A stretch of DNA of 40,000 bases from Nitrospinota bacterium (lineage in GTDB: Bacteria; Nitrospinota; Nitrospinia; JACRGO01): positions 1 to 40,000 of the forward strand of contig JACRGO010000009.1 of assembly GCA_016212295.1 (NCBI GenBank). The letters are read 5' to 3'. The notes beneath the pieces are model-generated. The model searched no databases, was not told the DNA's origin, and was given only the letters and a program-made list of their open reading frames with translations. Numbering within the stretch: position 1 is the stretch's first letter; every line of letters starts with the position of its first letter. Shown here in pieces: positions 9,605-29,578 of this stretch. Both the position numbers and the translations under genes were made by a program.

Positions 9605-9750
9605 AAAGTAAAATCAAATCACAAATGGCAAATAACAAATCACAATTAATGAATGTCCAAAACAATTCCTTTTTCTTGTTTGTTTTTTGTAATTTTGATC
9701 ATTGAAATTTATTTGTTATTTGATAATTGAGATTTGGAGTTTCACAAATC
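9605..9750. repeat. CAAATAACAAATCAC-word inverted repeat
   Basis: Upstream of rnpB, words such as AAATCAAATCACAAATGG (about 9613-9650) face their reverse complement (TTTGTTATTTGATAATTG and neighbours, 9700-9745), forming an imperfect AT-rich hairpin. No clear rnpB promoter could be separated from it. Confidence 0.65.
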
Positions 9751-9757
9751 AGGATAT

Positions 9758-10116: not shown

Positions 10117-10263
10117 TTTTTATTTTTGACCGGATCCCACCCATTGATATTACTCCTCAAAAGAGCTGATATTATTTACGGTTGCCGGATGCATATGATT
10201 TTTTCAAGACAGCTTCCGAAATTATTGTGATTATTTTTTCCTGTGCCTCCTCATGGCCGCAAC

Positions 10264-13594: not shown

Positions 13595-14644
13595 TTATTT
13601 AGAAATAACAAAAAACTTTAGAAGGCTGTCGACAATATTTTCACAACCGAAGCGGTAGGGATCGTTGGCGGGGAGTCCGGCGTAGGACCCTATATCCCGG
13701 ATGGCCTGTCTGGCCTTGGACTCGTCCTGGATGCGGTGGGTTATGACCCCAAGGCCGAGGACCTTTGAGTCCTTGAAAAAACTCATGGCTGTTTCGTGGA
13801 AGTCGATCATCTTTTTCAGATCAGGTATCCTGTTGCCCCAGTCATCGTATTCCCTGGTTGCGTCCAGGCAAAAGACCATTGCGTCCGGCATGGACCCGTG
13901 CAGGAGTCCCAGGGTGACCCCTGAATAGGCCGAGTGGGTCAAGGCCCCCTGGCCTTCCACGAAGATGAAATCAACTCCCTTCCTGTCTGATTTTTCTATC
14001 TCAGCTTCCACAGCCCCGGCCAGGAAATCGCTTACCACGGCGTCCGCCGGGACCCCTTCTCCCCCGGCCAGCAGGATACCGGTCTGGCCTGTCCCGATGA
14101 AATTCGATGGAATGCCTCTCTTGCGGAAGGCCTGGAAAATCTCGTAAATGGTGGAGAGCTTGCCTGAGTTGCAATCTGAACCGACGGACAAGACCACCTT
14201 GGCGCGGATCTCCTTCCACTTGCTTTTCGCTACCTTGAGATCGGGCGCGGGTTTTCTGAGATCGGTGATTTTTACTCCGTGGGCCTTAGCGAGTCCGGCT
14301 ATTTCCGGCATATCGGAAAAAAAGTTGTGAAGGCCGCTCAACACGTTCATCTTGTTGGCTATGGCCTCCTTCACCGTGTCCAGCAAGTGGGCGTTCATGG
14401 CGCCTCCGATGGGAGCGGAGCCCACGAGAAAGGTGTCGGGCCGGAAGCGCAGGGCCTCGGCCAGGCAGCCGACAATCGGGACGCCCTTGCCGGCGCCGAT
14501 GAATTCAAACAGGTCGCCGCCCTTCTTGGAGCTGTCGATCACGGCCGCTATTTCATCCGGGAAATACCGGATGGCGCAGTTGCCGGTCTTTGAGGCGAAA
14601 AGGCCTAGTTTGCCTTCGGCGTATATGAGGATTTTTCTTTTCAT
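13595..14644 (-). CDS. DUF1611 protein, DgcN-like (possible D-glutamate N-acetyltransferase)
   Basis: From ATG 14644 this is a 349-residue protein of the DUF1611 family. It has a Rossmann-like N-terminus (RKILIYAEGKLG; FLVGSAPIGG) and a P-loop-like centre, VGSDCNSGKLSTIYE, at about residues 154-168. FVEGQGALTHSAYSG near 228-242 is the most conserved stretch. Established knowledge: one member of the family, DgcN, is described as a D-glutamate N-acetyltransferase that works with an epimerase, and other members lie beside dipeptide epimerases. Here it sits downstream of ftsZ on the same strand, next to genes that consume D-glutamate-containing precursors, so a role in recycling D-Glu is a reasonable inference. 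No epimerase gene is present in the window. An in-frame TTG 5 codons upstream falls in the repeat and was not used. Confidence 0.82.
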   Translation of the reverse strand: MKRKILIYAEGKLGLFASKTGNCAIRYFPDEIAAVIDSSKKGGDLFEFIGAGKGVPIVGCLAEALRFRPDTFLVGSAPIGGAMNAHLLDTVKEAIANKMNVLSGLHNFFSDMPEIAGLAKAHGVKITDLRKPAPDLKVAKSKWKEIRAKVVLSVGSDCNSGKLSTIYEIFQAFRKRGIPSNFIGTGQTGILLAGGEGVPADAVVSDFLAGAVEAEIEKSDRKGVDFIFVEGQGALTHSAYSGVTLGLLHGSMPDAMVFCLDATREYDDWGNRIPDLKKMIDFHETAMSFFKDSKVLGLGVITHRIQDESKARQAIRDIGSYAGLPANDPYRFGCENIVDSLLKFFVISK

Positions 14645-14649
14645 AGAGG

Positions 14650-14790
14650 CATTGGTCAATAGTCATTGGTCATTGAGTCATTAGTCATTGGGTCATTAGT
14701 CAATTAATAAACGCGATGATTCCCAAATAGCCAAAAGATCACTGGCCAATGCCCCAATGCCCAATGACTATTGACTATTGCCCAATGACT
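14650..14790. repeat. AGTCATTGGTCATTG-word inverted repeat, ftsZ-DUF1611 spacer
   Basis: Degenerate copies of a TCATTGG(T/G)CATTAG word run at 14650-14707 and in reverse complement at 14741-14790, filling almost the entire spacer. The same family occurs at 7662-7726. It may act as a hairpin at the end of the dcw transcript, but has no proper T-run. Confidence 0.8.
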
Positions 14791-14800
14791 TTTTTCAATT

Positions 14801-15964
14801 TCAATGTCCGTTATTATGCCTCAAGAAAGTCGGAATGTCGTACTGGGTTTCGTATTCTATCTTTGAGTTAACGGTCGGCTGCAAATGGAAATGCTTGTCC
14901 CCCAGTTTCTTTCCGGTGCGAAGATAGGCCGGCTTATCGTATGAGCGGGCGTCAGGGGTGACCACCGGCAGGGCGTCAACAGCCTTCATTTCGACCTTCG
15001 CCTCCAGGTCTGATCTTCTGTTGAATCCAGTGGCTATGACCGTCACCCTCATTTTTCCTTCCATTTCAGGGTCTATGACGGACCCGAAGATGATGTTCGC
15101 GTCATCGTGGGCTTTTTGCTGTATGAAGAGCGTGGCCTCGTTGACCTCGTGAAGGGTCATGTCCGGTCCGCCGGTGATGTTGATCAGCATGCCCTTGGCG
15201 CCGTCCACGCTGTTTTCCTCCAGGAGCGGACTTGAAATCGCGCCGGTTGCCGCGTCAATCGCCTTGCGTTCTCCCTTGCCGAGGCCGGTCCCCATCAGGG
15301 CCATGCCCATGTCCATCATGATGGTCTTGACGTCCGCGAAATCGAGATTTATCAGGCCGGGTTTCTGGATCAGGTCGGAAATCCCCTTGGCCGCCTGGCA
15401 GAGGACGTCGTCCGCCACCTTGAACGCGGCTGAGAGCGGCTGTTTGCCGACCACTGAAAGGAGCTTCTGGTTCGGGATGACGATCAGGGTGTCCACGCAT
15501 TCATTCAATTCCTCTATGCCTCTTTTCGCCTGCTGGATGCGGCGTTTTCCCTCGAAATCAAAGGGCTTTGTCACTATGCCGACCGTCAGGATCTTGTGCT
15601 CCTTGGCGATCCTGCCTATCACGGGCGCGGCCCCGGTGCCGGTCCCGCCGCCCATTCCGGCGGTGATGAAGACCATGTCCGCGTCCCTGATATATTCCGC
15701 TATTCTCCTCTCGTCCTCGAGGGCGGCCTTTTGTCCGACCTCCGGATCTCCCCCTGCTCCCAGGCCGCGCGTGAGCTGCGGTCCAAGCTGAATCTTATTC
15801 GGGACCTTTGAGCAGCGCAGGACCTGGATGTCCGTGTTTGCCACGAGGAATTCCACCCCAGTCAGGCCGGACTCCATCATTGTATTGACCGCGTTGCCTC
15901 CGCCCCCACCCACACCGATGACCTTTAATCTCGCTACATTCTCCGTTTCCGCGAACTCAATCAT
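14801..15964 (-). CDS. ftsZ: Cell division protein FtsZ
   Basis: The tubulin-like GTPase that builds the Z-ring at midcell. The 387-residue protein has all core motifs: [13 protein letters not shown] (15-27), the GTP-binding signature [10 protein letters not shown] (105-114), NLDFADV with the T7-loop NxDxxD-type residues, and the C-terminal conserved peptide DIPTFLR that contacts FtsA. The variable linker is short (about 40 residues). AAGGGGA lies before the ATG. It is the last gene of the dcw cluster, 31 bases after ftsA, and is followed by a repeat array. Confidence 0.98.
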
Positions 15965-15995: not shown

Positions 15996-17231
15996 TTAAA
16001 AGAATTCCTCCACCCACCCCTTCATTCTTGAGAAAATTTTGTTGAACATGTTCCTTCCGGAAAGGTCCGGCTGGCCCTTGTCCTTCTTGTCCGTTTTCCT
16101 GTGCCCATAGAGCAGCAAGCCCACGCTTGTGGCGTACATGGGCGAGTTGACCACGTCCACCAGTCCGCCTATTCCCCTTGGATATCCCCTGCGGACCGGG
16201 AGTTGGAAGGCACGTTCCGCGGCCTCCAGCATCCCTTCCATGATCACAGTGCCGCCCGTGATTACAAGCCCGGACGAGAGCGCGTCCTCGTAACCGCTTG
16301 CAGTGATCTCCCTCTTCAGGAGGTCGTAAAGCTCGACCACGCGGGGCTCGATTATTTCCGCCAGGATTTCGCGCGATAAAATCCGCGGCTCGCGTCCGCC
16401 GACGCTTGGGACCTCTATGGACTCCTTGTCCTTTACCATGCCCGCTATGGCGCAGCCGTATGCCTTCTTGATCTTCTCGGCCTCGCTGTGCGGCGTCCTG
16501 AGGCCGATGGCTATGTCGTTCGTGAGATGGTCGCCTCCAATGGCGAGCACTGAGGTGTGCTTGATCGCGTCCTGGCTGAAGAGCGCGATGTCCGAGGTCC
16601 CGCCGCCTATATCCACCATCGCGACGCCGAGTTCCCTCTCCTCCGGGGTCAGGACCGCCTCGCTGGAAGCCAGGGGCTGTAGCACGATATCGTTGACCTG
16701 GAGTCCGGCCTTGTTGACGCTCTTCACTATGTTCTGGGCGGAGGTCACGGCGCCTGTCACTATATGGACCTTGACCTCAAGCCTCACGCCGTGCATTCCC
16801 AGCGGGGACTTTATGCCGTCCTGGTCGTCCACGATGAATTCCTGGGGCAGGACGTGGATCACCTCGCGGTCCATCGGGATCGCGAGGGCCTTCGCGGCGT
16901 CGATGACGCGGAGGATGTCGGGCTGTGTGACTTCCTTGTTTTTCACAGCGATTATTCCGTGGCTGTTGAAGCCCTTGATGTGTCCGCCTGCTATTCCCAC
17001 GTATACGGAATCAATCTCCATTCCGGCCATCAACTCCGCTTCTTCCACGGCGCACTTGATGGACTCCACGGTGGTTTCAATGTTTACCACCACGCCTTTT
17101 CTAAGGCCCCGCGAAGGGTGCTGGCCGATTCCGATGATGTCGATCCCTCCCTCCTCGTTGACTTCACCGATGATGCAGCAAATTTTCGTAGTGCCGATGT
17201 CCAGGCCTACGATAGGAGCATTTTTTGCCAT
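15996..17231 (-). CDS. ftsA: Cell division protein FtsA
   Basis: The actin-like ATPase that tethers FtsZ to the membrane. The 411 residues start with the phosphate-1 loop [15 protein letters not shown] and include the phosphate-2 motif [13 protein letters not shown] and adenosine motif [11 protein letters not shown]. The protein ends in an amphipathic helix ([17 protein letters not shown]), the usual membrane-targeting tail. The ribosome site GGAAGGTGA is good. It sits in the normal place between ftsQ and ftsZ, but a 200-base spacer with a large repeat hairpin separates it from ftsQ. Confidence 0.97.
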
Positions 17232-17262
17232 CGTAAATCACCTTCCTTTCTTGAAAAGTTTT

Positions 17263-17423
17263 AAGTGACTAAAGTGAGCTAAAGTTAAAAGTGAGCTAAA
17301 GTTAAAAGTGAGCTAAAGTTAAAAGTGGCTTAAGTTGCGGTGGAAGTACCACTTTTTTTAACTTTAGCTCACTTGTAACTTTAGTTCACTTTAGTCACTT
17401 GTAACTTTAGCTCACTCTTAACT
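17263..17423. repeat. AGTGAGCTAAAGTTAAA hairpin array, ftsQ-ftsA spacer
   Basis: Left arm 17263-17337 holds near-identical tandem copies of AGTGAGCTAAAGTTAAA. Right arm 17351-17423 holds the reverse complements (TTTAACTTTAGCTCACT and variants). Together they would fold into a hairpin of about 70 base pairs with a short loop. The same word family fills the spacers at 22484-22664 and 25202-25333, and nowhere else in the window. Confidence 0.9.
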
Positions 17424-17431
17424 TTTTCCCT

Positions 17432-18310
17432 TCAAACCCCCTCCGTGAATTTAACCACCGCCTTTTTCTCGTAGCACAGGTCAATGGACTTTATGGACTT
17501 GCCCTCCATCCTCGCGTAATCGAAAATGGCCCTCAGCCTGGAGAGTTTTTTCGGGAGGTCCTGCGTGTCCACGCGGATTTCCGTTTTGTTCTTCCTGGTG
17601 ATAAGGGACATTTCGTACTTGTTCTCGATCCTCAAGCCTGCCACCGGGTCTTCAAACAGCCTTGTTTCCCCGGCGTACTTCAGCAAGTGTAGGCCGGTCA
17701 GGAATATTTTCGGGAAGACCTGGCCGCCGAGGTCCGGCCTGTCCTCTCCCGCGCCCGCAAGGAGCGGCAGGTCCGGGTACTCTTTTTCAGAGAGCTTCGC
17801 TATTATGAATCCCTTGGCGTTCACCAGAAACAGCTCGCCCCTCCAGAAGACCCTGGCGAAGAGTTCCCTTTCCGTGATTTCAATGGCAAGGCCGGACGGT
17901 AGGTCGCGCCGCACAACGGCCTTCTCCACCCACGGGTTTCGCATTATATTCTTAGAGATGTTCTCCAGATTAAGCTGAAAGGAGTTTTTCCCAGTATGCA
18001 CGCCTGAAAGCGACAGTATCTCAGTTTCCGGTATCCTTTTATTTCCTGCCACCACCACCTTATTCAGGAGGAAATGTTCGTCCTGGAAGATATAGCTATA
18101 TGCATTCATCCCGACGGCGGTAGAGGCCGCGGCAAGCAGGGCCATGAAAGACGCCTGGACGCAAAAAACCACAAGATAAGCCATCGTGTTGTAAATGGCC
18201 CGGAAGGAAATCGGCTTCCTTGGTTTACTTGCGGACTTGGAGCGGACCCGCGCGCGGGTGCGAGGGGAAACCACGCCCTTCCTTGATATTGCAATGCTTG
18301 CTGACGCCAT
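17432..18310 (-). CDS. ftsQ: Cell division protein FtsQ
   Basis: A bitopic divisome protein linking FtsL/FtsB and the septal synthase. The 292-residue sequence has a long basic cytoplasmic N-terminus (to about 40), one membrane helix (about 43-65), a POTRA domain (about 82-152, with VVVAGNKRIPETEIL and NPWVEKAVVRRDLPSGLAIEI) and the beta domain ending in IKSIDLCYEKKAVVKF. The start lies three bases after the ddl stop, which supports translation coupling. No FtsB gene is seen here. Confidence 0.92.
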   Translation of the reverse strand: MASASIAISRKGVVSPRTRARVRSKSASKPRKPISFRAIYNTMAYLVVFCVQASFMALLAAASTAVGMNAYSYIFQDEHFLLNKVVVAGNKRIPETEILSLSGVHTGKNSFQLNLENISKNIMRNPWVEKAVVRRDLPSGLAIEITERELFARVFWRGELFLVNAKGFIIAKLSEKEYPDLPLLAGAGEDRPDLGGQVFPKIFLTGLHLLKYAGETRLFEDPVAGLRIENKYEMSLITRKNKTEIRVDTQDLPKKLSRLRAIFDYARMEGKSIKSIDLCYEKKAVVKFTEGV

Positions 18311-18312
18311 GT

Positions 18313-19227
18313 TTATTTCACCGTGTCTAAAATGTTTTCAAGCAGGACGCCGAATTCCATTCCCGCCTGCTTAGCGGCCATCGGCAGGAGACTGGTCCCG
18401 GTCATACCCGGGAGCGTGTTACATTCCAGGACAAAGGGATTTCCGCCAGAGTCCAGCATAAGGTCCACCCTGGAAAGCCCCCGGCATCTCAGGACCTTGT
18501 GCGCCTGGAGGGCCAGTTCAGAGCACCTCCTTGCCGCTTCAGAACTCAAGGGAGCGGGGCATAGGTAGTCGGTTTTCCCCTTGGTGTACTTTGCCTCGTA
18601 ATCGTATAGCCCGCCCTTTGGTTTTATTTCCACGATTGGAAGCGCCCTTTCTCCGACGATTCCAACAGTGAGATTCCTGCCGTCGATAAAATCCTCCACC
18701 AGGACCTCGTCATCCATTTTAAAGGCGCATAGGATGGCTGCCTCAAGCTCTTCCTCGCGGCGGACAATGGAAAGCCCTATGGTGGAGCCTTGGGACGCGG
18801 GCTTTACAATGCAAGGCAGCTTCAGGTCCCTTTTGGCCTTTTCCATGAAATCCGGGTCGTCCCTGAAAATGGCTTGAAAGTCCGGGGTCGGTATTCCATG
18901 AAAAATGAATATTTCCTTTGCGATGGTTTTATTCATGCTCAGGGCGCTGCCGAGTATCCCGGACCCCACGTAAGGTATGCCCATCCATTCCAAAAGGCCC
19001 TGCGCCGCGCCGTCTTCCCCCAGCGCCCCATGAAGGGCAATGAAGGCGATATCGATTTTGGATTCCTTGATTTTTTCCCAGAGGTCCCGGCCGGCCATGA
19101 TCGGCGCAACGTCGTAGCCCTGTTCTTTCAGGGCGGCCGCAACCGCGCTTCCGGTTTTAAGGGATATTTCCCTTTCAGAGGAAAAGCCCCCCATGATTAC
19201 GCCGATTTTTTTATTTTTCCATTTCAT
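18313..19227 (-). CDS. ddl: D-alanine--D-alanine ligase
   Basis: An ATP-grasp enzyme that joins two D-alanines for the end of the peptidoglycan stem peptide, feeding MurF. Present are the N-terminal MGGFSSEREISLKTG, the ATP-grasp segments CIVKPASQGSTIGLSIV and VEDFIDGRNLTVGIVG, and the C-terminal LECNTLPGMTGTSLLPMAA with the Mg-binding and substrate residues. At about 304 residues it has the usual length. ATG 19227 is preferred to a GTG three codons earlier (19236), because the GTG leaves little room for a ribosome site; the difference is small. Confidence 0.96.
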   Translation of the reverse strand: MKWKNKKIGVIMGGFSSEREISLKTGSAVAAALKEQGYDVAPIMAGRDLWEKIKESKIDIAFIALHGALGEDGAAQGLLEWMGIPYVGSGILGSALSMNKTIAKEIFIFHGIPTPDFQAIFRDDPDFMEKAKRDLKLPCIVKPASQGSTIGLSIVRREEELEAAILCAFKMDDEVLVEDFIDGRNLTVGIVGERALPIVEIKPKGGLYDYEAKYTKGKTDYLCPAPLSSEAARRCSELALQAHKVLRCRGLSRVDLMLDSGGNPFVLECNTLPGMTGTSLLPMAAKQAGMEFGVLLENILDTVK

Positions 19228-19236
19228 TGTATTCAC

Positions 19237-19303
19237 TCACCGCAAAGGCGCAGAGGGCGCAAAGAAAAGCCAAAACTTTGCGTTCTTTGCGTCTTTGCGG
19301 TGA
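19237..19303. repeat. CGCAAAG-word inverted repeat, murB-ddl spacer
   Basis: Arm 19237-19264 (starting TCACCGCAAAGGCGCAGAGG) and arm 19276-19303 (ending GTCTTTGCGGTGA) are reverse complements at about 24 of 28 positions. The word is the same family as the repeats at 1037-1248. The left arm overlaps the region just before the ddl start. Confidence 0.8.
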
Positions 19304-19331: not shown

Positions 19332-20261
19332 TTAATTCATAATTTGAATTTCAAGTTCCAGATTTATTCCGAATTTCTCCATCACCTTTTTCCTGGCCAT
19401 GTCGATCAGTTCCTGAATGTCCGACGCCCTTGCCCCTCCGGTGTTTACAATAAAATTAGCGTGTTTCCTGGATATCTCGGCGCCGCCGGCCCGCGTTCCC
19501 TTTAGTCCGGCGGACTCTATCAAACGTCCCGCGCAATCGCCCGGCGGGTTTTTAAATACCGACCCTGCTGAAGGGAACTCAAGGGGCTGCGAGTTTTTCC
19601 GCCATTGGAGATGTTCCTTCATCTTTTTCAAAATTTCCCCGGCCTCGCCCGCGGCCAATTTCAACTTCGCGCCAAGAATAATTCCCATGTCCCTCAGGGA
19701 AGACCATCGATAGCCGAACTTGATTTCTTCCCTGGAGAGATTGCGCGCCCGGCCTTCCATGTCCATTACTCTGACCGATTCCACCAGGGAAGCTATCTCC
19801 CGGCCCCCGGCCCCTGCGTTCATTAATAACGCCCCTCCAAGGGTCCCTGGAATTCCGGCCAGGCATTCCATTCCGGTGAGACCATGTTTCAGGGCAAAGG
19901 CGGCCAAGCCGCTAAGAACCACCCCGGCCCCGGCCTCTATCTCCTTGGATTTTTCTCCATTTTTCAGCAAGGTCTTCTTCCTGTAATTTCCGTCCAGTAA
20001 AATAACCACGCCCCTTATGCCCTGGTCCGATACCAGAATATTCGAGCCCCGTCCGATGACCCTGGCCGGAAGGCCCTTTTCCCCGGCGAACTCCAGGGAG
20101 CGCCTCAGTTGGCCGTCATCCTCGGCCCAAAGCATGAGGTCCGCCTTTCCTCCCACTTTAAAGGATGTGTAGGGCGCCAAGGGCTCATTGGCCTTGAAGC
20201 GGATTTTTTCGCGCCTCAACCTCTCTACTTCGACGTTCGACGTTCGATGTTCGATGTTCAA
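19332..20261 (-). CDS. murB: UDP-N-acetylenolpyruvoylglucosamine reductase MurB
   Basis: A flavoenzyme that reduces UDP-GlcNAc-enolpyruvate to UDP-MurNAc. The family motifs are all present: APYTSFKVGGKADLML, VIGRGSNILVSDQG, GLTGMECLAGIPGTLGGALLMNAG, FGYRWSSLRD, PSAGSVFKNPPG, and SRKHANFIVNTGGA. The start is a problem. No ATG or GTG precedes the conserved core, and the first in-frame start (TTG 20261) lies in a TCGAACATCGAACGT-word repeat, so the first 13 residues are a translation of that repeat. A later TTG at 20219 would exclude it but has its purine-rich stretch too close. murB follows murG by 24 bases; murC, usual at this place, is missing. Confidence 0.95.
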   Translation of the reverse strand: MNIEHRTSNVEVERLRREKIRFKANEPLAPYTSFKVGGKADLMLWAEDDGQLRRSLEFAGEKGLPARVIGRGSNILVSDQGIRGVVILLDGNYRKKTLLKNGEKSKEIEAGAGVVLSGLAAFALKHGLTGMECLAGIPGTLGGALLMNAGAGGREIASLVESVRVMDMEGRARNLSREEIKFGYRWSSLRDMGIILGAKLKLAAGEAGEILKKMKEHLQWRKNSQPLEFPSAGSVFKNPPGDCAGRLIESAGLKGTRAGGAEISRKHANFIVNTGGARASDIQELIDMARKKVMEKFGINLELEIQIMN

Positions 20262-20273
20262 TGTTCGACGTTA
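20228..20273. repeat. TTCGACGTTCGATGTTC array at the murB start
   Basis: Five to six degenerate copies of a GTTCGA(C/T) heptamer (for example TTCGACGTTCGATGTTC on the plus strand) cover the murG-murB junction and the first codons of murB. Translated on the minus strand it gives NIEHRTSNVE, a peptide often seen at mis-called protein starts. Confidence 0.85.
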
Positions 20274-20285
20274 ATTCTTTATTTT

Positions 20286-21368
20286 TTAACCAGCCAAGTC
20301 CTCCGCCATCATGGCTATCCTCGAGGCCGCGTCAGGCTTCGAGAACTTCTTGATCTCCTCGCCCACCACCATCAAGGCCAAGGGGTTCTCCATGTAATAA
20401 GTGATTTTTTCAGCAAGCCTCTCTCCCAGGAATTCGTCCTCCAGCAGGACCTCCGCCGCGTGGTTTCTTTCAAGCGCCCTGGCGTTTATTTCCTGGTGGT
20501 TGTCCGCCGCTGTTGGCAGCGGTATTAAAATCGCGGGCTTCCCGGCGGCCGCCAGTTCCGAAAGGGTCATTGCGCCGGCCCGGCAGACGATCAGGTCCGC
20601 GAACCTGAAGGCGTCGAACATGTCGTATATAAAGGGCTGGACGTCGGCCTTGACCCCAAGCTCCTCGTATTTTTCCTTTATCCATTCACAATCCGCCGTT
20701 CCTGACTGATGAAGGATGCTGATTGGCCTTGGAAAATCCATGAGCACGGCGGCGGCTTCCACCATCGCCATGTTGATTGCATGAGACCCCTGGCTTCCTC
20801 CGAATATCAGCAATGTAAACTGGTCCACATTTTCCACGTCCTTCAGCCGCGGTTTTATTTCAAGGAACTCCCTGCGGACCGGATTTCCCGTTGCCTCGGT
20901 TTTGGACCTTGGGAAATAGTCCGCTGACTCCTTAAAGCCAAGCGCGATGGCATTAACTATCCTTGCCGCTATCCTGTTCGTTGCGCCGGGCAGCACATTC
21001 TGCTCGTGGATCAGGCGCGGCACTCTTAACAGCCAGGCCGCGGCGAGGACAGGTCCTGAGACATACCCTCCCGCGCCAAGGGCGACGTCAGGCCGGAACA
21101 CCGCCATGTAAAAGACGGCCTGAAGGAACCCGAAGGGCAGTTTGAAAAGGGACTTCAAGATATCGGGCAAGGACTTCCTTTTCATTCCGCCGGCGGCGAT
21201 GGTCCTGAATTCCAACTCTTCCCTTCGCAGAATTTCCACGCCGCATCCTTTTTTTGTTGTGATAAAGAGGACCTTGGTTTCCCAATTCCTATCGAGCAGT
21301 TCCCGCGCCACGGCTATGGCGGGATAGAGATGTCCTCCAGTCCCTCCAGCGGCGATAAGTATTTTCAT
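20286..21368 (-). CDS. murG: MurG, lipid II-forming GlcNAc transferase
   Basis: This peripheral membrane GT-B enzyme adds GlcNAc to lipid I, making lipid II. The glycine-rich loop GGTGGHLYPAIAVA with H13 is at 8-21, the acceptor-domain segment LGAGGYVSGP at about 97-106, HEQNVLPGATNR at 121-132, and the second G-loop FGGSQGSHAIN at 189-199. The UDP-GlcNAc site region CRAGAMTLSELAAAGKPAILIPLP follows as two adjacent stretches. The 360 residues are normal length. The start overlaps the ftsW stop as ATGA, showing tight coupling. Confidence 0.97.
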   Translation of the reverse strand: MKILIAAGGTGGHLYPAIAVARELLDRNWETKVLFITTKKGCGVEILRREELEFRTIAAGGMKRKSLPDILKSLFKLPFGFLQAVFYMAVFRPDVALGAGGYVSGPVLAAAWLLRVPRLIHEQNVLPGATNRIAARIVNAIALGFKESADYFPRSKTEATGNPVRREFLEIKPRLKDVENVDQFTLLIFGGSQGSHAINMAMVEAAAVLMDFPRPISILHQSGTADCEWIKEKYEELGVKADVQPFIYDMFDAFRFADLIVCRAGAMTLSELAAAGKPAILIPLPTAADNHQEINARALERNHAAEVLLEDEFLGERLAEKITYYMENPLALMVVGEEIKKFSKPDAASRIAMMAEDLAG

Positions 21369-22480
21369 GGCTGTTTTTTCACATACATTTTGTTGGAGAC
21401 ATTCAGCAAAATCCCGGCGCTCACCATTGACACTATAAGGGACGAGCCTCCCACGCTTATAAAGGGAAGAGGCAGCCCCTTTGTCGGGAGCGCCCCCACC
21501 ACCACTCCGATGTTGATCAGGGCCTGCACGCTGATCAGCAGGGAAAATCCCACGGCCAGATAGCGGCCGTAAAGATCATCGACCTTCATGGCAACGCGCA
21601 GGCCGCGCCACAGAAAAACAATGAAACACAAGAGGACAAAAGCCACCCCGATGAACCCCAACTCCTCGCCTATCACTGAAAAAATAAAATCCGTGTGCGG
21701 CTCAGGTAGATAGAAGAGCTTTTGCTTGCTGTTCCCCAGGCCAAGGCCGGTGACGCCTCCCCGCGCAATGGCAAGCAGGGACTGGATGATTTGAAAGCCG
21801 GAGTCCGTGGGATCGTCCCATGGATTCAAAAAAGCCAGAATCCTCCTCTTCCGGTAGGGGACGAACATGACCGCGTAAGCCAGGACCGGCAAGGAGCAAA
21901 GGAGCGTGAGAAACGTGTGCTTCATCCGCACCCCTGCGACAAAGAGGAGCATGGAAACCACAACGGTGATGACTATGGCGGTGCCAAGGTCCGGCTGTAT
22001 GGCGATCAACATGGCGAGCGCTCCCAGGACTATAAGGTTCGGGAGATAGCCGACGGTGAAGTCCTCGATCTTGTCCGCTTTCCTGGAAAGGGTATGGGCC
22101 ATATAGAGAATCAGGGAGACCTTGACCAGTTCCGAGGGTTGAAAGATGAATGGGCCCAGCACCAGCCACCTCCTTGCTCCTCCTACTTCCTTGCTGAAGA
22201 CCGGGAAGAGGATGAGGACAAGCATGAAAACTGAAGCCGCGAAGAGTGGGAGGGTCGCCTTCTTCAATTGTTCATAATCAACGAGCATGACTGACACCAT
22301 CAGGACCGACCCGATTCCCACCCAGGCGATCTGGCGCTTCAGGAAATAAAGGTGGTCTCCGTATCTTTCCATTGCGATAATCGCGCTGGCGCTGTAACTC
22401 ATGATGACCCCTATGGACACCATTACAAGGGTGGAGATGAGTATCCAGGGGTCGAATCTTTTTGTGATTTTTATGTTCAT
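21365..22480 (-). CDS. ftsW: FtsW, septal peptidoglycan glycosyltransferase (SEDS)
   Basis: A polytopic SEDS enzyme that polymerises lipid II with its partner FtsI. The 371 residues have about ten membrane helices. Family marks are GGARRWLVLGPFIFQPSELVK (as two stretches, 99-120), PDLGTA (163-168), and the catalytic-loop PEPHTDFIFSVIGEELGF (259-276), where D264 is the likely catalytic aspartate. LPFISVGGSSL (338-348) follows. The gene order is mraY-ftsW with a 189-base repeat-filled gap; in related clusters murD lies here. Confidence 0.96.
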   Translation of the reverse strand: MNIKITKRFDPWILISTLVMVSIGVIMSYSASAIIAMERYGDHLYFLKRQIAWVGIGSVLMVSVMLVDYEQLKKATLPLFAASVFMLVLILFPVFSKEVGGARRWLVLGPFIFQPSELVKVSLILYMAHTLSRKADKIEDFTVGYLPNLIVLGALAMLIAIQPDLGTAIVITVVVSMLLFVAGVRMKHTFLTLLCSLPVLAYAVMFVPYRKRRILAFLNPWDDPTDSGFQIIQSLLAIARGGVTGLGLGNSKQKLFYLPEPHTDFIFSVIGEELGFIGVAFVLLCFIVFLWRGLRVAMKVDDLYGRYLAVGFSLLISVQALINIGVVVGALPTKGLPLPFISVGGSSLIVSMVSAGILLNVSNKMYVKKQP

Positions 22481-22483
22481 GTT

Positions 22484-22664
22484 ACAAGTGACTAAAGTTA
22501 CGAGTGAGCTAAAGTGACTAAAGTTACGAGTGACTAAAGTGAACTAAAGTTAAAAACGAAAAATCGTTACATATATATTTAAACTTAGTGGACCTTCGTG
22601 GCTATGATCTTTTGTTGCCGCTTTCAACTTTAGTCACTTGTAACTTTAGTCACTTTAGCTCACT
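22484..22664. repeat. AGTGACTAAAGT hairpin array, mraY-ftsW spacer
   Basis: Tandem words AGTGACTAAAGTTACG and AGTGAGCTAAAG fill 22484-22555; their reverse complements (ACTTTAGTCACTTGTAACTT and variants) fill 22624-22664. The array occupies nearly the entire gap where murD is usually found. It belongs to the same family as those at 17263-17423 and 25202-25333. Confidence 0.9.
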
Positions 22665-22669
22665 ATCCT

Positions 22670-23761
22670 TCACCTTATTTTCAAAGTACTCAAACTGAAC
22701 ATTGCAAGGATAATGGCGACTATCCAGAACCTGACTATAACCTTCGGCTCCTCCCAGCCCTTTTCCTCGAAGTGGTGGTGCAAAGGGGCCATGCGGAAAA
22801 TCCGCTTGCCCCCGGTCATTTTGAAATAACCAACCTGGAGGATGACCGACATCGCTTCTATCACAAATACCCCGCCGATGAAGAAGAGCAGGAGTTCATG
22901 CTTGACTATCACGGCCAGGGTCCCCAGCAGGGCCCCCAAGGGAACGGAGCCGACATCGCCCATGAATATCTGGGCCGGATAGGAATTGAACCAAAGAAAA
23001 CCAAGGCACGATCCTATGGCCGCGCCGCATAGCACTGTCAGCTCCCCGCTTTCCTTGATGTTGTAAATCATCAGGTATTGCGCGAACTTGGTATGGCCGC
23101 ATACGTAAGTCACCACCATCAAGGCGAAGGTGGCTATGATAATCGGGCCTATGGCCAGTCCGTCCAGTCCGTCCGTGAGGTTGACCGCGTTGGACGTTCC
23201 CACTATCACCATGATGATGAAAAAAAGATAAAAAAGGCCCAGGTCCGGTCTGTAGTTTTTCAGGAAGGGTATGCCGAGTTTCGTGGCGAAGCCCGCCCTG
23301 CCGCTGTCAAAATAAACAATATACACCGCCACGATCGACGCGAAAAAAAACTGGAGGAAGAATTTCTCCCTTGGCGACATTCCCTGCTTCCTGATTTTTT
23401 TGATCTTCATGTAGTCGTCGGCGAAACCTATGGCGCCATAGGCAATGGCCACGAACATGGCCAGTAAAATGTAGCGGTTGGAAAGATCGGCCCACAGCAG
23501 GACCGAAACTATAAGGGAGCCAAGGATCAGGAGGCCGCCCATTGTGGGGGTACCGGATTTTTTATGGTGGCTTTTCGGCCCGTCCTCCCTTATTTTTTCC
23601 CCGATTTCAAAGGCCCGCATGGTCCTAATCACCAGCGGACCTATCAGCAGGCTCAGCAACAGGGCGGTCAAAAGCGAATACACCGACCGGAAGGTAATGT
23701 ATTTAAAAACATTGAAAAGAGTGTATGTATCGCTTAGCGGATATAGTAAGTGGTAAAGCAT
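22670..23761 (-). CDS. mraY: MraY, phospho-MurNAc-pentapeptide translocase
   Basis: A ten-helix membrane enzyme that transfers phospho-MurNAc-pentapeptide to undecaprenyl phosphate, giving lipid I. The 363-residue sequence has the conserved GPKSHHKKSGTPTMGG (61-76), the aspartate pair D115-D116 in GFADDYMK, NAVNLTDGLDGLA (191-203) and the HHH motif PLHHHFE (326-332). The start lies four bases after the murF stop. Confidence 0.97.
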   Translation of the reverse strand: MLYHLLYPLSDTYTLFNVFKYITFRSVYSLLTALLLSLLIGPLVIRTMRAFEIGEKIREDGPKSHHKKSGTPTMGGLLILGSLIVSVLLWADLSNRYILLAMFVAIAYGAIGFADDYMKIKKIRKQGMSPREKFFLQFFFASIVAVYIVYFDSGRAGFATKLGIPFLKNYRPDLGLFYLFFIIMVIVGTSNAVNLTDGLDGLAIGPIIIATFALMVVTYVCGHTKFAQYLMIYNIKESGELTVLCGAAIGSCLGFLWFNSYPAQIFMGDVGSVPLGALLGTLAVIVKHELLLFFIGGVFVIEAMSVILQVGYFKMTGGKRIFRMAPLHHHFEEKGWEEPKVIVRFWIVAIILAMFSLSTLKIR

Positions 23762-23765
23762 GGCC

Positions 23766-25157
23766 TCAGTTTTCCATTATTTTTTTAATAATCCTCTCCA
23801 TCCCCATGCCGCGTGAGCCCTTGAGGAGGACGCAGTCCCCTTTTTTCGCGAAATCCCTCAGAAAACCTGCGGCCTCTTCAGGGTCCTTGAAACCCTTAAC
23901 CCTTGAGGAATCAAAGCCGTTCTCAATGGCGGACATGCCGCAGGCCTCGGCCTCGTCCCCGAAGGTAACGAAGAAATCAAGTTTCTTTTCCGCGACTATT
24001 TTTCCTATACGGGAGTGGGCGGACTTTGAATATTTTCCTAGCTCCAGCATGTCGCCAGCGACGAATATTTTTCTCCCGGCCACGTGTTTGCCGGCCAGGG
24101 TTTCAATGGCTGCGGACATGGACGCGGGATTGGCGTTATATGCGTCGTTGATAAGCATGACGCCGTTCCACTCCAGGGTCTCCATGCGCATGGCCAGGGG
24201 CCTGTAATTTTCAAGGCCCTCGGCTATACCGTCACCATTGATTTCAAGCAGTTCCGCCACTGCAGCGGCGCATAGGGCGTTATAAAGGTTATGCATTCCA
24301 GGGACCATGACCTTGCAGCGGGCGATTTTCCCGCCGCGCGCCACCAGGCTGAATTCAATGCCGGAATCCCCAAGCCGGATCTCCTCCGCCGTGAAATCCG
24401 CCTTGTTCCTCATGCCAAAAGAGACGACCCTTCCCCTTGCGGCGTTTTTCATGGCGTCAAAGCCGAAGCTGTCGGAATTCAAAACCACGCCGCTTTCGCG
24501 GTCCAGGCAGTCCACAAGCTCTTTTTTGGCCTTCAGGACGTTTTCAATTGAGCCCAGTGATTCCAGATGGGCCTCTCCTATATTAGTCACCGCCCCGTAT
24601 CCCGGCCTGGCGGTATCGCATAAAAGCGTTATCTCGCCAAGGCCGCTCATTCCCATTTCCAGGACAGCCGCTTCATGGGTCTCGTCCAATTCAAAAAGCG
24701 TGAGCGGCAGGCCGATATGGTTATTGAAATTTCCCTGGTTCTTTAACACCCGGAACTTCGTTGACAGGATGGAGGCCGCCATTTCCTTTACAGTGGATTT
24801 TCCATTACTGCCGGTGATCCCGACCACCGGGATATCGAATTTCATACGATGGCAGCGGGCGATGTCGTGCAGGGCCTTCAAGGTGTCATCCACCTTTATT
24901 ACCGTGGCCCTGTTCCCGGCGTTATGGGAAAACTTTTTTATTTCGTCTTCCCGCTCAGACAGGATAGCAACGGAAATGCCTTTTCCCATTGCCTCTTCCA
25001 TGAACAGATGGCCGTTTTTGCTTTCGCCCTTGATGGCGATGAAGAGTCCGCCTTCAGCGGCCTTCCGGGAATCTATATAAATCCCGGAAAATTCCGTGTC
25101 CGCCTTCCCGGCAATCGCCGTCCCGCCCGTGGCCGCCATAAGTTCCTTGGTTTTCAT
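23766..25157 (-). CDS. murF: MurF, UDP-MurNAc-tripeptide D-Ala-D-Ala ligase
   Basis: A cytoplasmic ATP-dependent ligase that adds the D-Ala-D-Ala made by Ddl to UDP-MurNAc-tripeptide. From ATG 25157 it has 463 residues: an N-terminal domain with DSR, the ATP loop GITGSNGKSTVKEMA (113-127), the MurF-type NQGNFNNHIGLPLT (about 140-153), EMGMSGLGEI, and the C-terminal INDAYNANPASM stretch. An in-frame TTG 15 codons earlier starts in intergenic word sequence (CGCGGCTGCGCCGC) and was rejected. murF is the only Mur ligase in this window. Confidence 0.96.
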   Translation of the reverse strand: MKTKELMAATGGTAIAGKADTEFSGIYIDSRKAAEGGLFIAIKGESKNGHLFMEEAMGKGISVAILSEREDEIKKFSHNAGNRATVIKVDDTLKALHDIARCHRMKFDIPVVGITGSNGKSTVKEMAASILSTKFRVLKNQGNFNNHIGLPLTLFELDETHEAAVLEMGMSGLGEITLLCDTARPGYGAVTNIGEAHLESLGSIENVLKAKKELVDCLDRESGVVLNSDSFGFDAMKNAARGRVVSFGMRNKADFTAEEIRLGDSGIEFSLVARGGKIARCKVMVPGMHNLYNALCAAAVAELLEINGDGIAEGLENYRPLAMRMETLEWNGVMLINDAYNANPASMSAAIETLAGKHVAGRKIFVAGDMLELGKYSKSAHSRIGKIVAEKKLDFFVTFGDEAEACGMSAIENGFDSSRVKGFKDPEEAAGFLRDFAKKGDCVLLKGSRGMGMERIIKKIMEN

Positions 25158-25201
25158 TGAGATCAATTTTAAACTTCCATAACGCGGCTGCGCCGCAATC
25201 A

Positions 25202-25333
25202 AGTTAAAAGTGACTAAAGTGAGCTAAAGTGACTAAAGTTGAAAACAAAAAATTGCCTTTCCACCACAACTTTAGCTCACTTGAAACTTTAGTCACTTTA
25301 GCTCACTTTAGCTCACTTTAGTCACTTTTAATT
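25202..25333. repeat. AGTGACTAAAGT hairpin array, ftsI-murF spacer
   Basis: Forward words at 25202-25242 (AAGTGACTAAAGTGAGC and similar) face five reverse-complement words at 25267-25333 (CTTTAGCTCACTTTAG and similar). The array fills the gap where murE is usually found. Confidence 0.9.
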
Positions 25334-27226
25334 TCACAATACCCTTTGCACCTGAAGATCGTTATAGTGGCGCGGAGAATTTTTCAATTGCTCCAGGGCC
25401 TGGGCGATATTTCCGCCGAAAATTTTGCCGTCCTCATATTCCTCCTCGTCGTCCCTGAAATAATCCTGGAAGTTCTTTCCATCCGTTCCAGGATCGGCCT
25501 GGTTCACCCATATCACCCTCCCCTGCTTGGAGGGGATGTTCAGGTAACGCGCGGTTTGCATGGCTATATTGCGAAAGACCGGAGCAGCCACGCTCCCGCC
25601 CCAGACAACGGTTTTCGGCTCGTCCACCATGACCAGGATCGCCACTTGGGGATTTTCCGCCGGGAAGTAACCCGCGAAGGAGGCCAGGTATTTTGTCTTG
25701 GAATAGGCGTTGATCTCCCTGTCGAATTTTTGCGCGGTCCCGGTTTTGCCCACGACGGAATAGCCTTCCAGGGCGGAATTCTTGCCCGTGCCTTCCAGCA
25801 CTACCTCCCTGAGTATGGCGGTCACTATTAGGCTGGTTTTCTTGCTGACGACCCGCCGGACTATTTCAGGCGAGAACAACTTCAAGGGCTTGCCGTTTTT
25901 GTAAATCCCCTTGACCACGCGAGGCTTCATCAGGACCCCTCCGTTGGCGATGGCTGAAAGAGCGGTGATGATCTGTATGGGCGTTACGGAGATTTCCTGT
26001 CCCATGGATACCGAGCAGAGTGACAAAGGAGTCCAGTTTTTCAGCTCCCTGTTAAGGCCGGTGGCCTCGCCGTCCATGTCTATGCCGGTCTTGGCGCCGA
26101 AGCCGAACTTTTCAATGAAATTATAGTAGCGTTCCTTGCCCAGCTTTTGGCCTATTTTTATCGCGCCGATATTGCTCGAAAGCTTTATTATGTCCACCAT
26201 GGACAACCATTCATACTTTTTCTTTTTTGCCTCGTGTATCGCCACATTGCCGACAAGCAGTTCCCCGTTTTCACAGTTGAACATTGTCTTGGGGTCTATC
26301 CCGGATTCAATGGCCGAGGCGGCAAGGAACACCTTGAAAGTGGAGCCTGGCTCGTAGGCGTTGGAGATGATCTTGTTCCGCCAATTGGCGGACGGGTAAC
26401 TTTTATACTGGTTCAGGTTAAAGGGGGGATAATCCGCCATGGCAAGGATTTCGCCGGTGGCGGGATTCATCACTATGGCTGCCCCTTCCTTGGCGCCGGT
26501 TTCAATTACCTTGTCGCTTAGTTCCTTCTCCGCTATATGCTGGAGCGTTTCGTCTATGGTAAGGACAATGTCGGATTGCTTGAATTCCTTGGATTGCTTT
26601 TCGATTTCCACTGACCTCATCATGCGGCCCTTTGCGTCCTTTTCCATGACGATCCATCTGCCGCCCCCGCGCAGGTATTCGTCATAAGAATGCTCCACCC
26701 CGGCAAGGCCCTTGAGGTCGAGTCCGGAAAAGCCTATCAACCTCGAGGCCATCTCCCTTTTGGGATAAAACCGTTTGAATTCCTTGACGGAGCCGATCCC
26801 TTCCAGATTTTTTTCCTTGAGGCTGGCGGCGTACTCCGGCAATGCCTGCCTGGCCAGCCAGACGAAATTCTTCCCGGTTTTGAATTTATCGATAAATGAT
26901 TTCTCGTCCGTGTGCAGGGTCTCCGCGAGGACCTTCGCGGTCTTTTTAAAATTCTTTACTTCGGAGGGGTTCGCGAAGAAGGAGTCCACTTCTATGTCAG
27001 CCGCTATTTCCCTCCAGTTTCTGTCGTAGATCATCCCCCTCCTGGGCTGGGAGTAAAAGGTCCTTGTGTATTGCCTTTCGGATTTCTCGGTAAGGGCCCT
27101 GTGCTGAAGGACCTGCAAGTCAAAGAGTCTGCCGAATATCCCCACCACCGCTATCGCAAGCAGGGGAATTATAAGCTTGATCCTTTTTTTTAACTGGTTT
27201 TCAGGACTCTTTTTTCGCGACGCCAT
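25334..27226 (-). CDS. ftsI: FtsI, septal peptidoglycan transpeptidase (PBP3 type)
   Basis: A bitopic class B penicillin-binding protein that crosslinks septal peptidoglycan with FtsW. The 630-residue sequence has a basic N-terminus, one membrane anchor (about 17-36), a dimerisation/pedestal domain (RRGMIYDRN at 62-70) and the transpeptidase domain with nucleophile S295-T-F-K298, S350-S-N352 and K494-T-G-T497. After the enzyme core there is an acidic stretch (DDEEEYEDGK) and a tail; no PASTA domain is visible. It overlaps ftsL by 26 bases. Confidence 0.97.
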   Translation of the reverse strand: MASRKKSPENQLKKRIKLIIPLLAIAVVGIFGRLFDLQVLQHRALTEKSERQYTRTFYSQPRRGMIYDRNWREIAADIEVDSFFANPSEVKNFKKTAKVLAETLHTDEKSFIDKFKTGKNFVWLARQALPEYAASLKEKNLEGIGSVKEFKRFYPKREMASRLIGFSGLDLKGLAGVEHSYDEYLRGGGRWIVMEKDAKGRMMRSVEIEKQSKEFKQSDIVLTIDETLQHIAEKELSDKVIETGAKEGAAIVMNPATGEILAMADYPPFNLNQYKSYPSANWRNKIISNAYEPGSTFKVFLAASAIESGIDPKTMFNCENGELLVGNVAIHEAKKKKYEWLSMVDIIKLSSNIGAIKIGQKLGKERYYNFIEKFGFGAKTGIDMDGEATGLNRELKNWTPLSLCSVSMGQEISVTPIQIITALSAIANGGVLMKPRVVKGIYKNGKPLKLFSPEIVRRVVSKKTSLIVTAILREVVLEGTGKNSALEGYSVVGKTGTAQKFDREINAYSKTKYLASFAGYFPAENPQVAILVMVDEPKTVVWGGSVAAPVFRNIAMQTARYLNIPSKQGRVIWVNQADPGTDGKNFQDYFRDDEEEYEDGKIFGGNIAQALEQLKNSPRHYNDLQVQRVL

Positions 27227-27611
27227 CCGTTTTTTTGTCCCCCTGGCCGGCTGCCCCCGGAGAAAGGTCCGCTGACTCCTTTTTAAGGCCCATGCGAACG
27301 ATTACAACGCGGGAGTCTTCCGGGAAATCCATTTTCAGCCTGTTCCTGGCTATAGTCTCTATTTTTTTCATGGACCGAAGGTTGGCGACTTCAATCCTCA
27401 TGAGATGGTTGGTTTGCAATAAGGAGTTGTATTGTTTTTGGAGTTCGTCCCTCTCATAACCAAGCTTTACAACCCTTATTTGCGGCCAGATATAAATCAA
27501 TCCCCCGATCAGGATAAGAACGACGCAGAGGGTATATTTCGCGGCCTCCACGAAGCCGCTGCCGCCGCCTCTAAATACTGTTTTTTTCAGCTTGCCCTTT
27601 AAACTAACCAT
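27201..27611 (-). CDS. ftsL: Cell division protein FtsL
   Basis: A short bitopic divisome protein (136 residues) that forms a coiled coil with its partners. It has a basic N-terminus, one membrane helix (about 26-42), then a periplasmic coiled coil (about 46-80, ERDELQKQYNSLLQTNHLM) and the septal-type segment IETIARNRLKMDFP. The charged tail (KKTDGVAKKES) overlaps the ftsI start. The call rests on position and shape, as FtsL sequences diverge fast. A GGAGGT ribosome site precedes the ATG, after two stem-loops in the leader. Confidence 0.9.
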   Translation of the reverse strand: MVSLKGKLKKTVFRGGGSGFVEAAKYTLCVVLILIGGLIYIWPQIRVVKLGYERDELQKQYNSLLQTNHLMRIEVANLRSMKKIETIARNRLKMDFPEDSRVVIVRMGLKKESADLSPGAAGQGDKKTDGVAKKES

Positions 27612-27851: not shown

Positions 27852-28790
27852 TCATGCCAGTTTTTCCGCCGCCCTCAATTTAGCGCTTCTGGACCGAGGG
27901 TTCCTTCTAACCTCTTCCTCCCCGGCGCAAACCGCTTTTCTGGTAATCCTTTTCAATACAGGCTTCCTGCCGCACGCGCATTGGGGAATTTTGGGAGGGC
28001 AGACGCAGCCCCTTTCCTTTTCCACGAAGAACTGCTTGACGATCCTGTCCTCCAGGGAATGAAAGCTGATCACCGCCAGCCTTCCGCCGGGCTTGAGCAT
28101 GTCCAATGCCCCCGGGAGCGCTTTTTCCAGCAGACCGATCTCGCCGTTTACGGCGATTCTCAGGGCCTGGAAGGTTTTCGTGGCTGGATGTATCCTGTCC
28201 GGGCGGAATTGGCGCGGGATGGCGTCAGACACTATGTCAGCCAACCTGCGCGTTGCAGTGATGGGACTTTTTTCTCTCTCCTCGATAATCCTGAAGGAGA
28301 TTCTTTTCGCCCATCGTTTTTCCTCGCCATAATTCTTTATAATCGCGGCCAGTTCCTTTTGGGGCAAGGTGTTCACCAAGTCGGAGACGGTGATTTTTTG
28401 GGACCGGTCCATACGCATGTCGAGGGGACCGTCCGAGGAAAAGGAAAATCCCCTTTCCACTGTCAATAATTGTCTTGTGGATACTCCAAGGTCCATCAAA
28501 ATTCCGTCCACTCCCTCCGGCGCCGAAGAGACCGCCTCTTTTATATTGATGAAATCGAGTTTTTTAATTTTTGCCCGGCTTTGGAAACGCGCCAGCCTTT
28601 CCCCTGCGGCCATGATTGCCTCCTGGTCCTTGTCCATTCCTATCAAGGTCCCGGACGGGGAGCTTCTTTCCAATATGGCCTCGGCATGGCCCCCGTCTCC
28701 CAGCGTCGCGTCAATATAAAGTCCGCCAGGCTTCACATCCAGGCATTGCAGGACCTCCTCCACCATTATAGGGACGTGAAGGATTTCCAT
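27852..28790 (-). CDS. rsmH: 16S rRNA (cytosine1402-N4)-methyltransferase RsmH
   Basis: An S-adenosylmethionine-dependent enzyme that methylates C1402 in the ribosomal P site; it is the second gene of most dcw clusters. The 312-residue protein shows HVPIMVEEVLQCL, the SAM-binding YIDATLGDGGHAEAIL, DGILMDLGVSTRQL, GFSFSSDGPLDMRMD, and the C-terminal RLAVISFHSLEDRIVK. It begins one base after the mraZ stop; an upstream start at 28817 would overlap mraZ and was rejected. Confidence 0.97.
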   Translation of the reverse strand: MEILHVPIMVEEVLQCLDVKPGGLYIDATLGDGGHAEAILERSSPSGTLIGMDKDQEAIMAAGERLARFQSRAKIKKLDFINIKEAVSSAPEGVDGILMDLGVSTRQLLTVERGFSFSSDGPLDMRMDRSQKITVSDLVNTLPQKELAAIIKNYGEEKRWAKRISFRIIEEREKSPITATRRLADIVSDAIPRQFRPDRIHPATKTFQALRIAVNGEIGLLEKALPGALDMLKPGGRLAVISFHSLEDRIVKQFFVEKERGCVCPPKIPQCACGRKPVLKRITRKAVCAGEEEVRRNPRSRSAKLRAAEKLA

Positions 28791-28791
28791 G

Positions 28792-29223
28792 TCACATTTC
28801 CGAGAGCTTATTCCCAAGCTCCTCGAACTGCCCTTCCTTTTCCGCCATGAATTTGTCCCACCGCGCCTTGTCCCATACCTCTATCATCCTCAGCACCCCC
28901 ACTATCACGACTTCCTTATTAAGGCCGGCTTGGCCGCGGAGGGATGGCGGGACCAGTATCCGTCCGTGCTTAACGGCGCACTCCGAGGCCCTGCCGTAAA
29001 AAAGGCGGTAGAAGTCCTGCACCTCCCTCTTCAGCGGGGGCAATTCCCTCCATTTTTCCTCAAGGATGGCCCATTCGGACTGCGGGTACACCACGATGCA
29101 TTCCTTGTTCACGGAAAGGATCAGGTTGTTCCCGTATTTTTTCTCCAGGACCTCCTGGTAGCGGGAAGGTATATTAATCCTGCCCTTTCCGTCTATATTG
29201 GCTGTGTAATGTCCAAGAAACAT
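28792..29223 (-). CDS. mraZ: MraZ, transcriptional regulator of the dcw cluster
   Basis: A 143-residue DNA-binding protein of double AbrB fold that forms rings and binds short direct repeats in its own promoter. It has the usual FLGHYTANIDGKGRINIPSR start with D11-x-x-G14-R15, and a second, slightly eroded copy around G87-R88 (KHGRILVPPSLR). ATG 29223 gives the normal family length; longer frames run into the operator repeats. It heads the cluster, with promoter and operator directly upstream. Confidence 0.96.
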   Translation of the reverse strand: MFLGHYTANIDGKGRINIPSRYQEVLEKKYGNNLILSVNKECIVVYPQSEWAILEEKWRELPPLKREVQDFYRLFYGRASECAVKHGRILVPPSLRGQAGLNKEVVIVGVLRMIEVWDKARWDKFMAEKEGQFEELGNKLSEM

Positions 29224-29231
29224 AGTTTTTT

Positions 29232-29276
29232 CGGCACTAAAAAGCACACTCCGGCATTTTTCGGCATTCAGCGGCA
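29232..29276 (-). promoter_or_regulatory. Variant MraZ operator: five 10-bp direct repeats
   Basis: Read toward mraZ, TGCCG occurs at exact 10-base steps: units start at 29276, 29266, 29256, (29246, degenerate TGCTT) and 29236. The period and place match the known MraZ operators (TGGG(A) plus a 5-base spacer in Escherichia coli), but the core is TGCCG. The units begin at the predicted transcription start and cover the leader. Confidence 0.7.
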
Positions 29277-29278
29277 CA

Positions 29279-29307
29279 ATATTACACCATGTCCATATTT
29301 TTGTCAA
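29279..29307 (-). promoter_or_regulatory. Strong sigma70 promoter of mraZ
   Basis: On the minus strand: a perfect -35 TTGACA (29307-29302), exactly 17 bases, and TAATAT (29284-29279; 5 of 6 consensus bases). Transcription would start near 29272, within the first operator unit. The rest of the divergent spacer up to 29578 is AT-rich and shows no clear plus-strand promoter. Confidence 0.8.
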
Positions 29308-29578
29308 CAAAAAAATATCAAAAAAATACAGGGCAAGAGTGGCGTCAAAGTCACCGATTTTTTTAGTTCAATCGAAAAGTGAAATCACAAAATGAAACTA
29401 TTTTTTGACGCGTTTTGAAACTTCTGCGTATTCATGGCTCAGTGCTGAAAATGAAATGCGCGAGGTAATTCTCGGAATATAAGAGTAATATCAAGCGGGA
29501 AAAAGAAATGGTAGTGTGTTATACTTAAAAAATAAATTTATTTTCATGCTTTTTTTTAGGTTCCAGCGGCGATATATA

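Follow-up and report, generated by a model that had tools for sequence, protein, structure and literature searches.

The division and cell wall (dcw) gene cluster on contig JACRGO010000009.1 of a Nitrospinota bacterium raises the question of how the peptidoglycan precursor could be assembled when the positions normally occupied by murE, murD, and murC lack these genes. The window examined here (40,000 nucleotides) is the entire contig (C219) of a 3.74-Mb draft genome, G000 (237 contigs, 90.5% complete, 0.4% contaminated). Read on the minus strand, the cluster has the order mraZ-rsmH-ftsL-ftsI-murF-mraY-ftsW-murG-murB-ddl-ftsQ-ftsA-ftsZ (Table 1). Gene calls and profile matches bear out the first-pass annotation, made from the window sequence, which had described this arrangement as the canonical dcw order minus exactly the three ligase genes; most relatives of the class Nitrospinia have murE, murD, and murC at the expected positions. 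The cytoplasmic Mur pathway is regarded as a fixed series of reactions starting on UDP-N-acetylmuramic acid (UDP-MurNAc), and MurC and MurD are deemed essential in walled bacteria. The genus represented by G000 has no murC or murD, and the repeat arrays seated in the three gaps are unrelated to this. Our answer, which we consider plausible, if short of probable, is that the genus builds the stem peptide first and attaches it afterwards.

Genome-content comparisons were confined to Nitrospinota. The sole close relative in the comparison set is G001, a metagenome-assembled genome of the same genus (Nitrospinia bacterium OFTM173; 5.6 Mb, 650 contigs, 99% complete, 6% contaminated). G000 and G001 form a branch without any other member of the family in the set (class Nitrospinia, phylum Nitrospinota), and the genus is deep-branching within Nitrospinota. 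The same three ligase genes are missing from the dcw cluster of G001, where there is an overlap between ftsI and murF, a gap of 2 bp between mraY and ftsW, and one of 90 bp between murG and murB.

An inventory of Mur ligases across the whole genome was obtained using the profile of their middle domain, PF08245. Only four matches were present in G000: MurF (in the window), MurE (contig C15), an Mpl-like protein (C61), and FolC (C158). The same four types were found in G001, together with a cyanophycin synthetase. Searches of both genomes with the MurD profile TIGR01087 down to E = 10 returned only cross-matches of no more than 110 bits; full-length MurD proteins of relatives score 403–464 bits. 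MurD was detected above the cut-off in 72 of the 77 Nitrospinota genomes, and the five without it are G000, G001, and three drafts that are 59 to 86% complete. No MurC was found in G000 or G001, the sole MurC-like protein being the Mpl-like one (283 bits versus a murC cut-off of 335.1). Hence, murE is relocated, while murC and murD are lost in both genomes of the genus. The expectation of the first-pass annotation that all three ligases would exist elsewhere holds for murE only, since whole-genome profile searches did not find the other two. Also, relocation of the three ligases as a single block is ruled out, as murE was the only one found and stands alone on its contig, outside the dcw cluster. 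Our search of the open-access literature revealed no free-living, walled bacterium reported to lack both murC and murD. The cyanophycin synthetase of G001 (L043:154-2739, 1101 bits) was not found in G000.

The remaining wall machinery is in place. MurA is kept in both genomes (504 and 501 bits), as are MurB, MurF, MraY, MurG, FtsW, an FtsI-type penicillin-binding protein (PBP), Ddl, and Mpl. Since MurA, MurB, MurF, MraY, MurG, Ddl, and Mpl are retained, the genus presumably makes a peptidoglycan wall. The substrate of MurF is UDP-MurNAc-tripeptide, and of the enzyme types left, Mpl is, to our knowledge, the only one with a known ability to attach anything to UDP-MurNAc. The Mpl-like protein was matched by TIGR01081 at 374 bits, just below the cut-off of 388.7 (283 bits with the murC profile). 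The Mpl-like proteins cluster with Nitrospinia Mpl in the tree (support 1.000) and contain, as TAFFDTRPK, the motif (S/T)AFFDxRxK reported to be Mpl-specific by Das et al. (PMC3060825). The possibility that this protein is a true MurC is ruled out by score, tree position, and motif. For the characterized Mpl, which prefers the tripeptide, a turnover of 260 per min is reported on L-Ala-D-Glu-diaminopimelate; on L-Ala-D-Glu the rate is 1.4, and on L-Ala 0.7 (PMC3060825).

The relocated MurE was matched by TIGR01085 at 464 bits (cut-off 257), and its ATP loop TGTNGKT is intact, as are the diaminopimelate motif DNPR and the catalytic (carbamylated) lysine. The alterations concern domain 1, in which the uridine site of MurE lies (PMC3829189). 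All 34 other Nitrospinota MurE retain both the DSR serine (D/N-S-R/Q/K) and that of EVSSH, along with TTPE and the xG loop. Both MurE proteins of the genus possess DYK instead of D/N-S-R/Q/K, TTPL instead of TTPE, and T instead of the first S of EVSSH; the loop glycine is replaced by tryptophan (W), which is followed by a 7-residue insertion common to the two genomes. With a leave-one-out profile, domain 1 scored 31.8 and 36.5 bits versus 126 ± 11 bits (minimum 97) in the 34 relatives, and the other two domains scored 437 and 429 bits versus 620 ± 27 bits. The Pfam profile PF01225 recognizes MurF of the genus and canonical MurE, but not MurE of the genus. General divergence is excluded as the cause, because the share of domain 1 in the score is normal for MurF and Mpl of the same two genomes. 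The altered stretch hardly differs between G000 and G001 (KPGNIYACLHWEEFLE.Y.LSNGYAYI) and is, therefore, maintained by selection, as would suit a newly selected site rather than decay. In overall conservation between the two genomes, MurE ranks with the highest-scoring proteins (73% identity; 57% for MurF). Taken at the level of sequence, these features indicate that MurE of the genus has lost the signature of a uridine-binding domain. Viral contigs scanned with the two MurE sequences gave no match, and no report of MurE acting on a free dipeptide was found in the open-access literature.

In both genomes, ftsZ is immediately followed by a gene for a DUF1611 protein (PF17396 and PF07755); in G001 this gene overlaps the ftsZ stop by 4 bp. 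DUF1611 was detected above the cut-off in 13 of the 40 Nitrospinota genomes searched, including G000 and G001, and in one of them (G024) the gene lies approximately 30 kb from the dcw cluster. When genome contigs were scanned with the DUF1611 pair, only G001 itself was returned. A member of this family, DgcN, carries out the first step in a D-glutamate pathway (PMC12363236) and is named D-glutamate N-acetyltransferase in NCBIfam. The genus proteins share both Pfam domains and the P-loop with DgcN and match the structures 7xrj, 2obn, and 2g0t, but they score only 227.8 and 239.1 bits against a DgcN cut-off of 480 and, unlike DgcN, are encoded in the dcw cluster. The search for a DgcA-type epimerase (MR_MLE), the partner in the DgcN-DgcA pathway, gave one PF13378 match below the cut-off per genome, probably enolase; a dipeptide epimerase making D-Glu within the dipeptide is ruled out by the lack of any credible MR_MLE match. 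The AlphaFold2 model of the DUF1611 protein (mean pLDDT 33) was not used. The position of its gene, the P-loop, and its relationship to an enzyme acylating D-glutamate at the amino group suggest this protein as a candidate L-Ala-D-Glu ligase, although this is the weakest step of the route proposed below.

Nearly all other DUF1611 genes of Nitrospinota precede a gene for an Orr-like pyridoxal phosphate (PLP) racemase (L057-L066; 393 bits to NF040742 in L058). Outside the genus, the two genes may possibly form a D-amino-acid unit.

In the route that we propose, all enzyme activities are predicted from gene content and protein sequence. Free L-Ala-D-Glu would be made by the DUF1611 P-loop protein, and a nucleotide-free MurE would add meso-diaminopimelate to it. 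The resulting tripeptide would be joined to UDP-MurNAc by Mpl, now essential, which is assigned to this step because it is the only remaining ligase able to perform it; MurF, MraY, and MurG would then act as usual. De novo synthesis in this reverse order, complete with a new DUF1611 dipeptide ligase, a MurE working without the nucleotide, and an essential Mpl loading UDP-MurNAc, is a more tentative proposal than the general idea that the peptide is built before its attachment. No description of such a route was found in the open-access literature.

Several observations weigh against this proposal. The DSR motif is not universal, since MurE of M. tuberculosis and T. maritima differ there, with a loop of normal length and no insertion. 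The control matches of DUF1611 included an archaeon as well as organisms whose walls are ordinary. No MurI was found in G000 and G001, and the same lack was seen in relatives with MurD. The evidence comes from the genome sequences of two drafts of one uncultured genus. The search for a source of D-Glu revealed one ambiguous Aminotran_4 paralogue.

MurI was above the cut-off in only one of the ten Nitrospinia genomes tested (listed as G000, G001, G002, G005, G008, G010-class relatives, G022, G031, and G044), and was missing even from the single-contig genome G022.

In the main rival explanation, the specificity of Mpl has changed such that L-Ala-D-Glu (or L-Ala) is what it attaches to UDP-MurNAc, MurE being an ordinary enzyme that acts on the nucleotide-linked dipeptide. 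Mpl is the only MurC-like ligase left, that of the genus sits on a long branch (0.79), and a thermosensitive murC mutant is complemented by overexpression of mpl from E. coli, which means that the fold can accept L-Ala (PMC3060825). However, the characterized Mpl is ~190 times slower on L-Ala-D-Glu than on the tripeptide (PMC3060825), and entry of L-Ala would still require MurD. The change in MurE argues against this explanation, which does not account for the loss of the uridine-binding-domain signature in MurE alone while MurF kept it, and we regard it as possible but rather unlikely. We give still less credit to scavenging, in which murein peptides would be imported from other cells or recycled and attached by Mpl, with MurE as a leftover or in another job. 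Recycling is the known role of Mpl (PMC3060825), and a lack of MurI would fit, but net wall growth is impossible from recycling alone; the 73% conservation of MurE between the genomes and its intact catalytic motifs imply that it is under selection.

An assembly gap, with murC and murD located on sequence absent from both drafts, is the least probable of these three explanations of the missing ligases. It is favored by the state of the assemblies (90.5% completeness and 237 contigs in G000; 650 contigs in G001) and by the lack of a murD match in the three other incomplete Nitrospinota drafts. Yet G001 is 99% complete, both genes would need to be missing in both genomes, and no fragment of either was found; neither the changed MurE nor the added DUF1611 gene would be explained by a gap.

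Assembly of the peptide before its attachment would share much with the canonical MurC-MurD-MurE-MurF pathway: the genus has MurA, MurB, MurE, MurF, MraY, MurG, and Ddl, and UDP-MurNAc-pentapeptide is its presumed end product as well. It differs in the absence of MurC and MurD and in a MurE that is devoid of the uridine-binding-domain signature. In the Xanthomonas MurD2/MurL variant, addition of the second residue is altered and a MurD-type ligase still acts on UDP-MurNAc-L-Ala, whereas the genus has no MurD-type ligase. In the pMur pathway of methanogen pseudomurein synthesis, Mur-type ligases have likewise taken on new roles, the peptide being assembled in a different order; that pathway, however, is archaeal and uses another carrier and other ligases, while the genus has orthologues of bacterial MurE, Mpl, and MurF. 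Another likeness would be the recycling of murein peptides in E. coli and Psychrobacter, where Mpl with the Mpl-only motif joins free tripeptide to UDP-MurNAc (PMC3060825). There, Mpl is an accessory beside MurC, MurD, and MurE; in the genus, it would be the only entry of peptide. If the proposal is true, the Mur order is reversible and de novo synthesis can pass to a recycling enzyme. The proposal would also provide a testable second function for DUF1611, a family that is widespread but whose role is mostly unknown, and would bear on the inference of cell walls from gene content and on the expected range of Mur-targeting inhibitors.

Another deviation was seen in two other Nitrospinia genomes, G002 and G006, in which the dcw cluster lacks murF and the sole MurF-like protein is encoded on another contig (L071:3131-4789 and L074:6631-8121). 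The N-terminal part of these proteins is different and partly hydrophobic, and the PF01225 domain is absent from them. Mur ligases seem to be unusually plastic in Nitrospinia.

Table 1. Genes and repeat arrays of the dcw cluster in the window.
Feature	Coordinates	Strand	Basis or remark
mraZ	28792..29310	-	72% identity to gene at same position in G001
rsmH (mraW)	27852..28817	-	gene call and G001 comparison
ftsL	27201..27611	-	gene call and G001 comparison
ftsI / PBP	25334..27226	-	NCBIfam
Dispersed AGTGACTAAAGT dyad array, murE-shaped junction	25201..25334	.	array absent in G001
murF	23766..25202	-	TIGR01143, 413 bits; DSR motif and PF01225 domain kept; true start likely near 25157
mraY	22670..23761	-	TIGR00445, 418 bits
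Dispersed dyad array, murD-shaped junction	22481..22669	.	corresponding G001 gap 2 bp
ftsW	21365..22480	-	TIGR02614, 422 bits
murG	20286..21368	-	TIGR01133, 313 bits
GTTCGAC tandem array, murC-shaped junction	20229..20272	.	overlaps annotated murB start
murB	19332..20261	-	TIGR00179, 249 bits
CACCGCAAAGGCGC inverted pair, intact murB-ddl junction	19237..19303	.	repeat search and folding
ddl	18313..19236	-	NF002378, 383 bits
ftsQ	17432..18310	-	gene call, relatives, and G001 comparison
Dispersed dyad array, intact ftsQ-ftsA junction	17255..17425	.	repeat search and folding
ftsA	15996..17231	-	gene call and G001 comparison
ftsZ	14801..15964	-	gene call and G001 comparison
TCATTGG-type array, ftsZ-DUF1611 gap (no gene missing)	14641..14790	.	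repeat search and folding
DUF1611 protein gene, candidate L-Ala-D-Glu ligase	13595..14659	-	PF17396 and PF07755, P-loop GSDCNSGK

The arrays in the three gaps are a separate matter. Repeats are indeed present at all three ligase-shaped junctions, as had been noticed at first pass, and go well beyond chance, with the qualification that the GTTCGAC array runs into the 5' end annotated for murB (TTG start, 20261) and hence is not purely intergenic. Two of the arrays contain dyads with 97% complementarity between the arms (22503-22540/22627-22664 and 25201-25232/25303-25334). Folding z-scores of the gaps with arrays were -10.6 (ftsI-murF), -12.2 (mraY-ftsW), -9.4 (ftsQ-ftsA), -8.5 (murB-ddl), and -5.1 (ftsZ-DUF1611); the GTTCGAC stretch, with a 7-bp unit and a z-score of -0.3, is a tandem repeat without a hairpin. 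The 12-mer AGTGACTAAAGT occurs in 140 copies in G000 versus 2 for the reversed control, in 12 copies in G001 versus 7 for the control, and in no more than 3 copies per genome in five other Nitrospinia.

The first-pass annotation had offered two readings of these repeats, namely, that they mark genes that were lost or moved, or that they collect in any gap of sufficient length. The former, under which the arrays would record where the three ligase genes were excised or moved, agrees with their presence at 3/3 holes in the window, but is refuted: the dcw cluster of G001 has the same holes without arrays (none at the three junctions, and none detected in the cluster by Tandem Repeats Finder), the 12-mer is scattered across G000, and gaps from which no gene is missing (ftsQ-ftsA, murB-ddl, and ftsZ-DUF1611) bear arrays or dyads as well. 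The arrays are a dispersed repeat filling long intergenic gaps of G000, as the second reading had it, and are unconnected with the lost ligases.

The first annotated residues of MurB (MNIEHRTSNVE) are encoded by the GTTCGAC array; a repeat array may thus have altered where an essential gene starts. Beyond the DUF1611 gene, near the cluster end, the plus strand encodes a large TIR-TPR protein (10530-13385), the TIR part of which matches PADLOC ThsB (105 bits), and which is possibly a defence gene. A class A RNase P RNA is located at 9759-10118 on the plus strand (RF00010, 312 bits) and accounts for the odd antisense open reading frames at 9742-10144.

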